Shown here piece by piece: positions 6,599 to 9,540 of a stretch of 36,102 bases of DNA. The stretch is from Dehalococcoidia bacterium (GTDB taxonomy: Bacteria; Chloroflexota; Dehalococcoidia; Bin125). How positions within the stretch are numbered: position 1 is the first letter of the stretch; every line of letters starts with the position of its first letter. The position numbers and the translations under genes are program-made. The notes under the pieces were generated by a model that saw only the letters and a program-made list of their open reading frames with translations, had not been told where the DNA came from and did not search any database. Location: assembly GCA_022822375.1 (NCBI GenBank), contig JAJEBU010000158.1, forward strand, positions 1 to 36,102, in the 5' to 3' direction.

Positions 6599-7849
6599 GT
6601 GTTTGAGTACTTCGTCCTCTTGCTGGGGCTGCTGACGCTGTCGGCCTTCTTCTCCAGCTCGGAAACGGCATATCTGTCCATCGAGGGCGTGCGCATGGAG
6701 CACGAGCGGCAGCGGCGGCTGCCCGGCGCGGACCGCGCCGCGGCCCTGCTCAGCGAGCCGCGCCGTCTGCTGGCCTCGATTCTGGTCGGCAACAACCTGG
6801 TCAACACGGGAGCGGCCACCGTCGGCGGCGTGATCGCCCAGGAACTGGTCGGCGGCAGCGAGGGCCTCAGCATCATCGTGGCCACCGTGGCGGTCACCGT
6901 GCTGCTCGTCATCTTCGGGGAGATTGGTCCCAAGTCGGTTGCCCTGCACCACAATCTCACGATGGCCCGCTACTACTCGCTGCCGCTGATCTGGTGGAGC
7001 CGCCTGATCGCCCCGGCCGTGGCCGCGCTGGACTGGACGTCACGCATCTGGCTGCGGATCGTGGGTGGCGAGGAAGAAGCTCACTCGGCGCTCTCGCTCG
7101 GCGAGCTGCGCACCGCGATCGTCCAGGCCCGCGACGAGGGCGAGATCGCCGTGGGCGATACGTCAGTGTTGCTGGGCGCGCTCCGTCTGGGCGAGACGCA
7201 AGTGCGCCGCGTGATGACCGCTCGCACGGCGATCAGCTCTGTGGACGCCAACGCGACGCTCGAAGAGGCCGGTCGGGCGTTCGCGATCGCCGGCTTCTTG
7301 CGCTTGCCCGTGCGCTACGGCTCGGCCGACGACTACATCGGCTATCTGCACGGCTCCGACGTCCTGGCGGAGCTGGGACAGGGCAACCGCGACGGCGTCG
7401 TGCGAGACGTCATGCGCGAGGCGCCGCTGGAGTCGGAACGCGCGTCGGTCCAGCGCGTGCTCACCGAAATGCAGACGACCGGCCAGCATCTGATGCTGTT
7501 GATCGACGAATTCGGGGCGACGACTGGCCTGGTCACGCTCGAGGACATCCTGGAGCTCGTCGTCGGCAACATCCGCTCGGAAACGCGGGCGGGATCGGAG
7601 CCGGTGCCCGTGCGCATCGCCGGGGAACAGTTCGTGGAAGGCCGGCGCGGCCTGACCGATCTGGGCGCGGAGCTGGAGATCGACTTCTCGCCAGAGGAGG
7701 CGGAGACGGTCGCGGGCATGCTGCTGCAGCGGTTCCGACGCTTCCCGCGGGCCGAGGAGTCGCTCGATCTCTATGGGTACCGCTGGACGATCGTGGACGC
7801 GGACGAACGGCGCATCCGCCTGGTCCGCTTCAGTCGGCTGAAGAGCTGA
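6599..7849 (+). CDS. CNNM/CorC (HlyC)-type transporter-associated CBS-domain membrane protein
   Basis: About 416 residues from the GTG at 6599, which is preceded by AAGGTGG at good spacing. The N-terminal DUF21 membrane region (about 1-140) begins with a hydrophobic segment and FFSSSETAY, includes LVGNNLVN and ends with the FGEIGPKS signature. A pair of CBS domains follows (about 190-320), containing VMTAR and LIDEFGATTGLVTLEDI. The last 80 residues form the CorC_HlyC transporter-associated domain. Family members are linked to Mg2+/Co2+ or Na+ transport and are regulated by adenine nucleotides through the CBS pair. An earlier ATG at 6533 would add an arginine-rich leader and is unlikely. The gene ends just before the tRNA-Leu gene. 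Confidence 0.9.
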   Translation: MFEYFVLLLGLLTLSAFFSSSETAYLSIEGVRMEHERQRRLPGADRAAALLSEPRRLLASILVGNNLVNTGAATVGGVIAQELVGGSEGLSIIVATVAVTVLLVIFGEIGPKSVALHHNLTMARYYSLPLIWWSRLIAPAVAALDWTSRIWLRIVGGEEEAHSALSLGELRTAIVQARDEGEIAVGDTSVLLGALRLGETQVRRVMTARTAISSVDANATLEEAGRAFAIAGFLRLPVRYGSADDYIGYLHGSDVLAELGQGNRDGVVRDVMREAPLESERASVQRVLTEMQTTGQHLMLLIDEFGATTGLVTLEDILELVVGNIRSETRAGSEPVPVRIAGEQFVEGRRGLTDLGAELEIDFSPEEAETVAGMLLQRFRRFPRAEESLDLYGYRWTIVDADERRIRLVRFSRLKS

Positions 7850-7873
7850 GATGCTGATAAGCTGGAGGCGTGT

Positions 7874-7959
7874 GCCGAGGTGGCGGAATGGTAGACGCGA
7901 TGGTCTCAAACACCATTGGGCGAAAGCCCGTGCCGGTTCGAGTCCGGCCCTCGGTACCA
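7874..7959 (+). tRNA. tRNA-Leu (anticodon CAA)
   Basis: Acceptor arms GCCGAGG and CCTCGGT pair (one G-T), the anticodon loop CTCAAAC gives anticodon CAA, and the long variable arm TGGGCGAAAGCCCG marks a class II tRNA as expected for leucine. The T arm carries GGTTCGAGTCC and CCA is encoded at 7957-7959. It would decode UUG codons. It directly follows the CNNM gene and is 17 nt before tRNA-Gln. Confidence 0.96.
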
Positions 7960-7976
7960 AGCCACTGGAAGAGCGA

Positions 7977-8050
7977 TGCCGAGTAGTGTAACGGTAGCAC
8001 TAGGGACTTTGGATCCCTCAGTTCAGGTTCGAATCCTGGCTCGGCAGCCA
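7977..8050 (+). tRNA. tRNA-Gln (anticodon TTG)
   Basis: Acceptor arms TGCCGAG and CTCGGCA pair perfectly, the anticodon stem AGGGA/TCCCT closes loop CTTTGGA with anticodon TTG, and the T arm carries GGTTCGAATCC. CCA is encoded at 8048-8050. It lies at the left border of the lower-GC accessory patch that holds DUF3800 and hicAB, a usual position for integrated elements, although I found no direct repeat of its 3' end. Confidence 0.96.
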
Positions 8051-8136
8051 TAACCGCGACCATTTAGTGAGTGCGGCACGCCGATAGAGCGAAGCAGGTA
8101 ACAGCCGCTGCAGGCCCGAAATCGCCAGAAGGCCCC

Positions 8137-8166
8137 TTGACTGCTCTGCCAAATTCCGGCTAGAGT
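8137..8166 (+). promoter_or_regulatory. Predicted sigma70-type promoter for the junction RNA
   Basis: TTGACT at 8137-8142 and TAGAGT at 8161-8166 are separated by 18 nt, a close match to the primary sigma consensus in a genome where such matches are rare by chance. The predicted start (about 8172-8174) falls only a few bases before the folded element at 8180. No plus-strand protein gene follows, so the promoter points to a noncoding RNA or an antisense transcript across the 3' end of the DUF3800 gene. Confidence 0.5.
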
Positions 8167-8179
8167 GCGTGCAAAGGTT

Positions 8180-8235
8180 CCTCCCCGACGAAAGAGCCCA
8201 TGGGGCTCTCTCCGCTTGCGGAGTAGTCGGGGAGG
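8180..8235 (+). ncRNA. Candidate structured RNA: perfect three-way junction
   Basis: The closing stem P1 is CCTCCCCGAC (8180-8189) with GTCGGGGAGG (8226-8235), ten perfect pairs. Inside are two hairpins with no spacer between them: P2 AGAGCCC (8193-8199) with GGGCTCT (8203-8209), and P3 CTCCG with CGGAG (8210-8223) capped by the stable tetraloop CTTG. GAA and TA join them to P1. A good promoter ends 13 nt upstream, so it would be the 5' end of a transcript. No T-run follows, so a simple terminator is unlikely. It begins 129 nt after tRNA-Gln and ends 27 nt before the 3' end of the DUF3800 gene. I do not recognise a known RNA family. Confidence 0.45.
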
Positions 8236-8262
8236 TCAATTCGTTAACGTAAGCTGGTAGGT

Positions 8263-8985
8263 TTAGTAGTAGAACGTGCTTCCCCTTCTGAAGATGTCAA
8301 ACTCGCTGTTGATGGCAGGGCTGATTTGCTGATAGTGCAACGGGTCATTCCGTTCCCACTTTCGAAAGATCGCCCATGAGCAATAGTCCGCGATCTGCAA
8401 GCCATAGTGGGATCGCGATGTATGGTGAAGGATCCTGTAGCTAACCTGAGCAGGAATCGTTGTGTTCAGGACGCGTTGAATGCCTTTCGCGACCGCCTGT
8501 CGTTGCCGCTTGACCGGCAGCGTATCAGTAATGACGATCAGCATACGATTGCCGACGTTATCTTCGCGTGGTAGCACGTACTTGAGATGGTAACCTAGCA
8601 TCTCTGGATAGAATCGCGCTTCGGTTGTCAGGGCGGGCCCTGTCTTGGGTTTCTCCACGATGAGACTGTGAATCCTCAGGCTGTCCAGAGCTGCAGCGAT
8701 ACAAGCGAACACATCCGCCCGCACTGCTTTGCTGTCTTCGGCGGCATGGAAGGACTCTAAATCAAGGCCCGATTGAATCAAATCGTATCTGAGTGAATCC
8801 AGCAGCTCCCGCGCAGGAAACGGTCTCGTCATGCTCACGCTGGTGAGGACGAAGTATCGAGTTCCCGATGGGCTGAAGTCGAGGTTTCCAGATTCATCAA
8901 GGAATATGTAGATCGGTGGATCGATCAACAGAATGCTGCGTCCGCTCGAGTGGTGAGTCAGGCTGATGGGCTCACCAATTCGCAT
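8263..8985 (-). CDS. DUF3800-family protein
   Basis: About 240 residues. The core IFLDESGNLDF near the N-terminus is the hallmark DxESG motif of DUF3800 proteins, followed by the YFVLTSV strand, a VITDTL acidic strand, and LQIADYCSWA near the C-terminus (the conserved QxAD motif). The fold is thought to be RNase H-like, suggesting a metal-dependent nuclease, but activity is not established. The start is uncertain: the ATG at 8985 overlaps the end of hicB by 28 nt; an ATG at 9033 or a downstream TTG just before the IDPP segment are alternatives. The gene is third in a hicA-hicB-DUF3800 run and has visibly lower GC than its surroundings (one counted 60-base line near 8341 is 53% GC, against 73% in the CNNM gene near 7381). 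DUF3800 genes are frequent in mobile and defence-associated regions. Confidence 0.82.
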   Translation of the reverse strand: MRIGEPISLTHHSSGRSILLIDPPIYIFLDESGNLDFSPSGTRYFVLTSVSMTRPFPARELLDSLRYDLIQSGLDLESFHAAEDSKAVRADVFACIAAALDSLRIHSLIVEKPKTGPALTTEARFYPEMLGYHLKYVLPREDNVGNRMLIVITDTLPVKRQRQAVAKGIQRVLNTTIPAQVSYRILHHTSRSHYGLQIADYCSWAIFRKWERNDPLHYQQISPAINSEFDIFRRGSTFYY

Positions 8986-9173
8986 GCTGGCACGGGTATC
9001 GGATCGCCGAACTCCGTTGCGGTATCGATCCACAGAGCCATGGCAACCTGTACCTCTCGCAAAGCTTCATCGTACGTCTCGCCGAGCGCTGAACAGCCGG
9101 GAAGTTCGGGAACAGCGGCGACGTACATGCCGTCTTCATTGCTCCAGAAGATATTGATCTGGTACTGCAGCAT
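8958..9173 (-). CDS. hicB: HicB-type antitoxin
   Basis: A 71-residue protein with the HicB partial RNase H-like fold: an INIFWSNEDGMYVAAVPELPG stretch (strand, turn, strand), GCSALGETYDEAL, then a helix REVQVAMALWID. This is the short HicB form lacking an obvious C-terminal DNA-binding domain, although PIPVPACELVSPSA forms a short tail. HicB binds and neutralises the HicA mRNA interferase. It lies 11 nt downstream of hicA in the same direction, the usual toxin-first order, and its 3' end overlaps the likely start of the DUF3800 gene. Confidence 0.88.
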   Translation of the reverse strand: MLQYQINIFWSNEDGMYVAAVPELPGCSALGETYDEALREVQVAMALWIDTATEFGDPIPVPACELVSPSA

Positions 9174-9184
9174 GACGCAACTCC

Positions 9185-9436
9185 TTAGACCCTTCGCAGG
9201 TCGTGTTTCTGCAGCGTCTTGCGCAGCTCGCGCAATTGGTATGGCTTCGCATCGGAGCCGATTGGCTGCAGGTTTACCTTCTCCACGATGCCCGCCATTC
9301 TGTACGTGTGATGGCTGCCCCGGATTCGCTCCTCGAAGCCGAGTCTAGCAAGCAGGGCACGGACATCGTCGAATCGGATGTTGGCCAGGTGTGAACCGTC
9401 GAGGATGCGGTTGAGCAGCCGTTGATGCCTATCCAC
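9185..9436 (-). CDS. hicA: HicA-type mRNA interferase toxin
   Basis: An 83-residue protein containing the dsRBD-like HicA core: FDDVRALLARLGFEER, then RGSHHTYR with the catalytic histidine in the G-S-H motif, a strand KVNLQPI, and a C-terminal helix LRELRKTLQKHDL. HicA toxins cut mRNA in a translation-independent way and are blocked by HicB. It is slightly longer at the N-terminus than minimal HicA (about 60 residues), with a lead segment MDRHQRLLNRILDGS common in the longer subfamily. It sits at the right end of the patch, next to tRNA-Asn. Confidence 0.88.
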   Translation of the reverse strand: MDRHQRLLNRILDGSHLANIRFDDVRALLARLGFEERIRGSHHTYRMAGIVEKVNLQPIGSDAKPYQLRELRKTLQKHDLRRV

Positions 9437-9464
9437 GGTGACGCCGCCTTCGACAGGGAAGTGA

Positions 9465-9540
9465 TGGCTGCCCGGGCAGGACTTGAACCCGCAACCTAGC
9501 GGTTAACAGCCGCCCGCTCTACCAATTGAGCTACCGGGCA
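9465..9540 (-). tRNA. tRNA-Asn (anticodon GTT)
   Basis: Read on the minus strand, the acceptor TGCCCGG pairs with CCGGGCA, the D arm has AGCTCAATTGGTAGAGC, the anticodon loop CTGTTAA gives GTT, and the T arm has GGTTCAAGTCC. CCA is encoded (9465-9467). Its 3' end faces the hicAB/DUF3800 patch, so the patch is bounded by the 3' ends of two tRNA genes. Confidence 0.96.

Follow-up and report, generated by a model that had tools for sequence, protein, structure and literature searches.

A three-way-junction RNA beside convergent DUF3800 genes of Dehalococcoidia, with solitary copies on phages

DUF3800 proteins are widespread and are met as accessories in CRISPR systems. RNAs without an explanation have long been known next to their genes, and DUF3800-associated RNA is an established kind. 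A series of DUF3800 motifs was reportedly described by Weinberg et al. in 2017. The DUF3800-VI, DUF3800-VII and DUF3800-IX RNAs (RF02915, RF02967 and RF02968) are all small RNAs located by a DUF3800 gene; DUF3800-IX is convergent with that gene and occurs on phage contigs too, where DUF3800 is missing on 3 of 6 viral records. The protein itself has been described as a nuclease of the RNase H fold, tied to CRISPR V-A2 and VI-F loci and to putative ncRNAs (PMC10910872, PMC12669027). Outside DUF3800, the abiF RNA of AbiF/RCd22 is an RNA antitoxin that binds its protein directly and so neutralises it, whether supplied in cis or in trans (PMC12373285). The ToxIN nuclease system is defeated by a phage with a toxI-like RNA (PMC10853763), and phages carry RNA anti-CRISPRs, termed Racr (PMC10651486).

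The locus compared here with these systems lies in a stretch of 36,102 nucleotides from a Dehalococcoidia bacterium, hereafter the window. An earlier note had read positions 8137-8235 as a near-consensus promoter followed by a perfect three-way-junction RNA. Both elements are real and far from chance, and the features of the locus are as follows.

8137-8166, plus strand: promoter from a consensus scan, with -35 TTGACT (8137-8142), an 18-nt spacer and -10 TAGAGT (8161-8166).
8172-8242, plus strand: small structured RNA gene with a DUF3800-IX-like three-way junction, exact 5' and 3' ends inferred.
8180-8189, plus strand: 5' strand of P1, pairing with 8226-8235 over 10 bp; two-sided changes in 7 of 10 pairs among 47 homologues.
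8190-8192, plus strand: junction GAA, in which GA hardly varies among family members (G in 46 of 47, A in 47 of 47).
8193-8199/8203-8209, plus strand: P2 hairpin of 7 bp with an ATG loop; 5 of 7 pairs covary.
8210-8214/8219-8223, plus strand: P3 hairpin of 5 bp with a CTTG loop that varies among homologues; 5 of 5 pairs covary.
8224-8225, plus strand: junction UA, present in 47 of 47 family members.
8226-8235, plus strand: 3' strand of P1, from the fold; in many homologues GUCRUUUUUU follows at once.
8263-9033, minus strand: DUF3800 gene (PF12686, Pfam E 1e-13), tail-to-tail with the RNA, encoding a predicted RNase-H-fold nuclease.
8958-9436, minus strand: HicB-like (PF15919) and HicA-like (PF07927) genes, recurrent in this hotspot with and without the RNA.

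The promoter is the sole sigma-70-like site within 7000-9500, with 9 of 12 matches to consensus where shuffles expect 0.5 +/- 0.8 sites. It is conserved in two congeners, as TTGACA-18-TAGGCT and TTGACA-18-TAAAGT, with both hexamers at the same positions and the 18-nt spacing kept while the spacer sequence has changed. A promoter-like site at p < 0.05 lies upstream of 16 of the 47 homologues, and five elements in the same scan sit inside phage transcription units, where a clear promoter of their own is absent. The fold is exactly as proposed, with stems of 10, 7 and 5 pairs and with P2 and P3 directly abutting within 8180-8235. Dinucleotide shuffles give -23.5 +/- 3.2 kcal/mol, and none of 200 is as good as the element, whose minimum free energy is -38.0 kcal/mol (z -4.6).

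The RNA is ~65-75 nt long, both ends being inferred, and is the product of a single-copy gene. Conserved flanks border it (5' CAAAGGU, 3' GGUCA), and models R1 and R2 match 8169-8242 at 100.5 and 87.7 bits. From the GUCRUUUUUU that directly follows P1 in many homologues, P1 probably doubles as a terminator; in the window the U-tract is weak. An Rfam scan of the window returned tRNAs only, and up to E 10 no credible match was found in 8050-8350. A dispersed repeat of the REP type, which the earlier note had named as a possible undoing of its claim, is ruled out by the single copy of the element in its 2.7-Mb genome.

Of the many matches from a broad DNA search of 148 relatives, three are real, two of them in congeners and one in a genome of the same family, each directly following tRNA-Leu/tRNA-Gln; the remainder, at E > 0.005, are chance. 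Between close relatives the element is nearly invariant while its flanks diverge. The covariance model R1, built from four sequences, found strong matches in nine more genomes of the class, and scanning 85,000 genomes for the pattern added RNAs in Gammaproteobacteria, Rhodospirillaceae, Rhodocyclaceae, Yoonia and others, with one of 12 matches looking like chance. The first viral pattern scan gave 29 matches, near the level expected by chance by estimate, of which 7 clearly passed the model. Searching INPHARED by blastn with single phage RNAs yielded almost nothing, and hence a covariance model is needed to find relatives. The RNA is mobile, being distributed over Chloroflexota, Proteobacteria, plasmids and phages.

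Across 47 aligned homologues, 96.9% of pair cells pair and 17 of the 22 pairs show two-sided compensatory change, in an alignment that was fitted to a model of the same structure and so favours it. Covarying pairs fall in P1, P2 and P3, as the earlier note had anticipated for a real RNA. Two-sided cells number 159 versus 36.9 +/- 5.4 after shuffling, the covariation score is 0.481 versus 0.177, and none of 500 shuffles reaches the alignment on any measure. When partners are slid by 1-3 columns as a control, pairing is ~41-52%. The sequence of P1 turns over fully, from CCUCCCC to GGGCCAG-like, with pairing retained. The alignment holds 77 G-U cells versus 11 A-C cells, an imbalance that identifies the plus strand as the functional one.

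The existence of this RNA family and its partnership with DUF3800 are near certain. Starting from the RNA within the class, 12 of 16 matches adjoin a DUF3800 gene, convergent in every case. Starting from the protein is the stronger test, because it is independent of the RNA: among 393 genomes of the class, 16 loci encode a protein with at least ~35% identity to that of the window, and every one has a convergent RNA beside the 3' end of the gene, seven of these RNAs scoring only 24-36 bits while lying in the right place at E 1e-5 or better. The RNA is likewise present at 5 of 5 viral DUF3800 loci, one of them weak at 15.6 bits, and at 3 of 3 plasmid or phage loci (Phaeobacter and Ruegeria plasmids and Gordonia phage Kenna). 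Protein-first loci lacking the RNA number 0 of 24. The RNA lies 0-27 nt from the DUF3800 stop codon, and its type tracks the protein clade, as window-type and IX-type DUF3800 proteins split at 100/100 support. DUF3800 in general exceeds the Pfam cut-off in 108 of the 393 genomes. The RNA is thus compact, covaries well and is matched one-to-one with a protein that was not found without it. As a separate observation, tandem RNA pairs 130-160 nt apart follow a single DUF3800 gene at four loci; tandem copies were recorded in four genomes.

The open reading frame at 8263-9033 is the version with a GTG start; translation probably begins near 8930. An AlphaFold2 model of the protein (pLDDT 77.9) adopts an RNase-H-like fold, with RNase HII (1eke, E 4.6e-6) as top PDB match at modest TM-scores. 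When nine relatives are aligned, the invariant columns include D46, E47, D170 and D216, and on this basis the protein looks catalytically intact. It is matched by the PADLOC model DUF3800_VII, which may be linked to type VII retrons; NCBIfam contained no model.

In contrast to the protein, the RNA does occur alone. DUF3800 is absent from the whole record in 9 of 11 RNA-bearing IMG/VR records, counted per record since these are fragments, as well as in a prophage of Mycobacterium and a plasmid from Yoonia. By sequence, the solitary IMG/VR records represent five viral lineages, in addition to the prophage and the plasmid. One solitary copy adjoins a terminase gene and another has a strong promoter of its own (TTGACA-17-TATACT). 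In three phages a shared block of 126-523 nt starts at the RNA while the upstream genes are unrelated, which suggests that the RNA moves between them as one unit. Bacterial solitary copies are often accompanied by DUF3800 remnants (three loci), and at another locus only sequence upstream of the DUF3800 gene remains. In our own tally by lineage, where lineages are not fully independent, intact DUF3800 is lacking in 13 of 28 RNA-first lineages versus RNA missing in 0 of 24 protein-first ones (Fisher p 6e-5). This asymmetry of loss fits an antitoxin, but also a short tolerated RNA or an RNA with a second use; a short RNA is more readily retained than a gene.

The genomic setting is an accessory cargo hotspot between tRNA-Gln and tRNA-Asn (8050-9465). 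Congeners differ in its cargo, which comprises DUF3800, HicA/HicB-like and other proteins, and it is nearly empty in two genomes. One of the options in the earlier note was that the RNA belongs to a toxin-antitoxin/DUF3800 locus. The DUF3800 part of that option stands, and the HicA/HicB part does not: HicB-like genes also flank RNA-less cargo, at four loci for example, and since they occur with and without the RNA, HicAB is a neighbour and no partner. In one genome the RNA is alone in the hotspot (locus L006, 1499-2443) with HicB/HicA-like genes and a protein judged AbiJ-like by eye, DUF3800 being absent; NCBIfam did not confirm the AbiJ-like identity. In another genome DUF3800 adjoins a tRNA-Sec gene (locus L200, ~1250-1350), and the 3' flank of locus L201 is very similar; tRNA-Sec may be a further insertion site for DUF3800 cargo.

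In our preferred reading the promoter at 8137-8166 would drive the RNA gene, which makes up a mobile accessory module of two components with the DUF3800 gene convergent to it. The invariant GA and UA of the three-way junction and the P2 hairpin would be the likely surface for protein recognition. The DUF3800 nuclease would be a presumably toxic defence effector with putative anti-phage activity, and the RNA would bind it directly and keep it inactive as an RNA antitoxin, control running from RNA to protein. On phages that have the RNA alone, it may serve as a decoy by which the effector stays bound. We put the probability that DUF3800 is an RNase-H-fold defence effector restrained by its RNA, with the solitary phage RNAs as decoys, at about one in two. 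It is preferred because of the asymmetry between RNA-first and protein-first counts, the siting in the hotspot and at phage immunity, the solitary phage copies with intact recognition elements, and the precedents of AbiF/RCd22, toxI-like RNA and Racr. The siting counts for defence through the hotspot, the plasmids and phage Kenna, in which the DUF3800 gene adjoins the immunity repressor. In type III systems the antitoxin usually precedes the toxin gene as an array of tandem repeats in the same orientation; a convergent, downstream and mostly single RNA therefore counts against the antitoxin.

This antitoxin and decoy reading is ranked above an obligate cofactor, which we regard as rather unlikely. 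There, the RNA would be a scaffold or recognition element in a stable RNP needed for DUF3800 activity, and the solitary phage RNAs would be regulators or relics. Strict pairing with the protein and the conserved junction agree with such a role, as does the place of DUF3800 as an accessory to CRISPR systems with crRNA; RNase-H-fold proteins working with structured RNA do exist, namely TnpB and Cas12. However, the RNA has no variable guide segment, it persists at loci with a broken or deleted DUF3800, which is unexpected for a pure cofactor, and phages keep the conserved structure without the protein.

It is much less probable that the RNA acts like a type I antisense RNA on the 3' UTR of the DUF3800 mRNA. 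The earlier note had the transcript run antisense into the 3' end of the gene, and the tail-to-tail arrangement at 0-27 nt from the stop codon would indeed give full complementarity if the mRNA reads through. A mainly antisense role is at odds with the turnover of P1, whose compensatory changes preserve the intramolecular fold, and with wobble pairs that favour one strand. Solitary copies, moreover, have a different P1 sequence and no adjacent target, and the U-tract right after P1 would stop the transcript before the gene in many homologues.

Slightly less probable again is that the element does no more than terminate transcription in both directions or, as a hairpin, stabilise RNA at the DUF3800 3' end. 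The GC-rich P1 followed by a U-tract on the plus strand of many homologues points in that direction, but the promoter of its own, the invariant junction and the covarying P2 and P3 do not; on the gene's own strand no U-run follows the stem in the window, and plasmid and phage copies lie away from any DUF3800. Least probable of all is a primarily selfish or transposable end travelling near DUF3800, for although the three related phages share homology from the RNA on with different upstream genes, and an accessory hotspot would suit such an element, the single genome copy, the lack of terminal or target repeats around the cargo and the obligate partnership with one protein clade leave the earlier suggestion of a mobile-element end as main function without support.

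Should the restrained-nuclease reading hold, "DUF3800 RNA, function unknown" would become an RNA-restrained nuclease with phage decoys, a directly testable hypothesis. Whether DUF3800 with a convergent three-way-junction RNA would also constitute an unrecognised class of RNA-antitoxin defence, countered by solitary phage copies as decoys, is a proposal we advance tentatively and with somewhat less than even odds in mind.

The closest described system is the DUF3800-IX RNA. Both share a P1 of ~10-11 bp, a short GA-containing 5' junction, a 7-bp P2, a 5-bp P3 and a UA before P1 closes, and both lie beside a DUF3800 gene. The unknown family of the earlier note thus holds at Rfam thresholds, and not in fold and partner. 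The window element gives no RF02968 match even at E 10, and the best related locus, an intermediate, reaches 29.4 bits, below the cut-off of 36.8 bits. The window RNA differs in P2 sequence and in its 5' AAAGGU, and its partner proteins form a separate 100/100 clade; R2 does not retrieve DUF3800-IX loci, and hence the two RNAs are kept apart. Judged from sequence, through Rfam models and with the DUF3800 motif set covered in part, the window RNA is a sister that has diverged from DUF3800-IX and is paired with a protein clade of its own; Rfam 15 misses it. It belongs to the broad kind of DUF3800-associated structured RNA by its covarying structure and by the DUF3800 neighbour of most members, while DUF3800-VI and DUF3800-VII are other families, without a match to the window element.

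More distant systems share single aspects. The abiF RNA motif (RF03085) is, similarly, a conserved RNA motif adjoining one defence-type protein, but that protein, Abi_2, is unrelated, and the RNA is upstream and co-directional, with two motif copies. ToxIN resembles the proposed module as a nuclease with an RNA antitoxin mimicked by phages; its ToxN is not DUF3800, and its toxI RNA consists of tandem repeats that precede the toxin gene. Instead of the co-directional upstream array of type III systems, the window has a single, convergent, downstream RNA, tandem pairs occurring only in some homologues, and instead of the ToxN/AbiQ fold a DUF3800 protein with an RNase HII-like fold. Racr RNAs are solitary, phage-borne versions of the RNA component of a defence system, as the solitary copies described here would be, and differ in mimicking CRISPR repeats. 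As far as can be told, the strict dependence of the protein on its RNA and the solitary phage copies are new observations among these systems.
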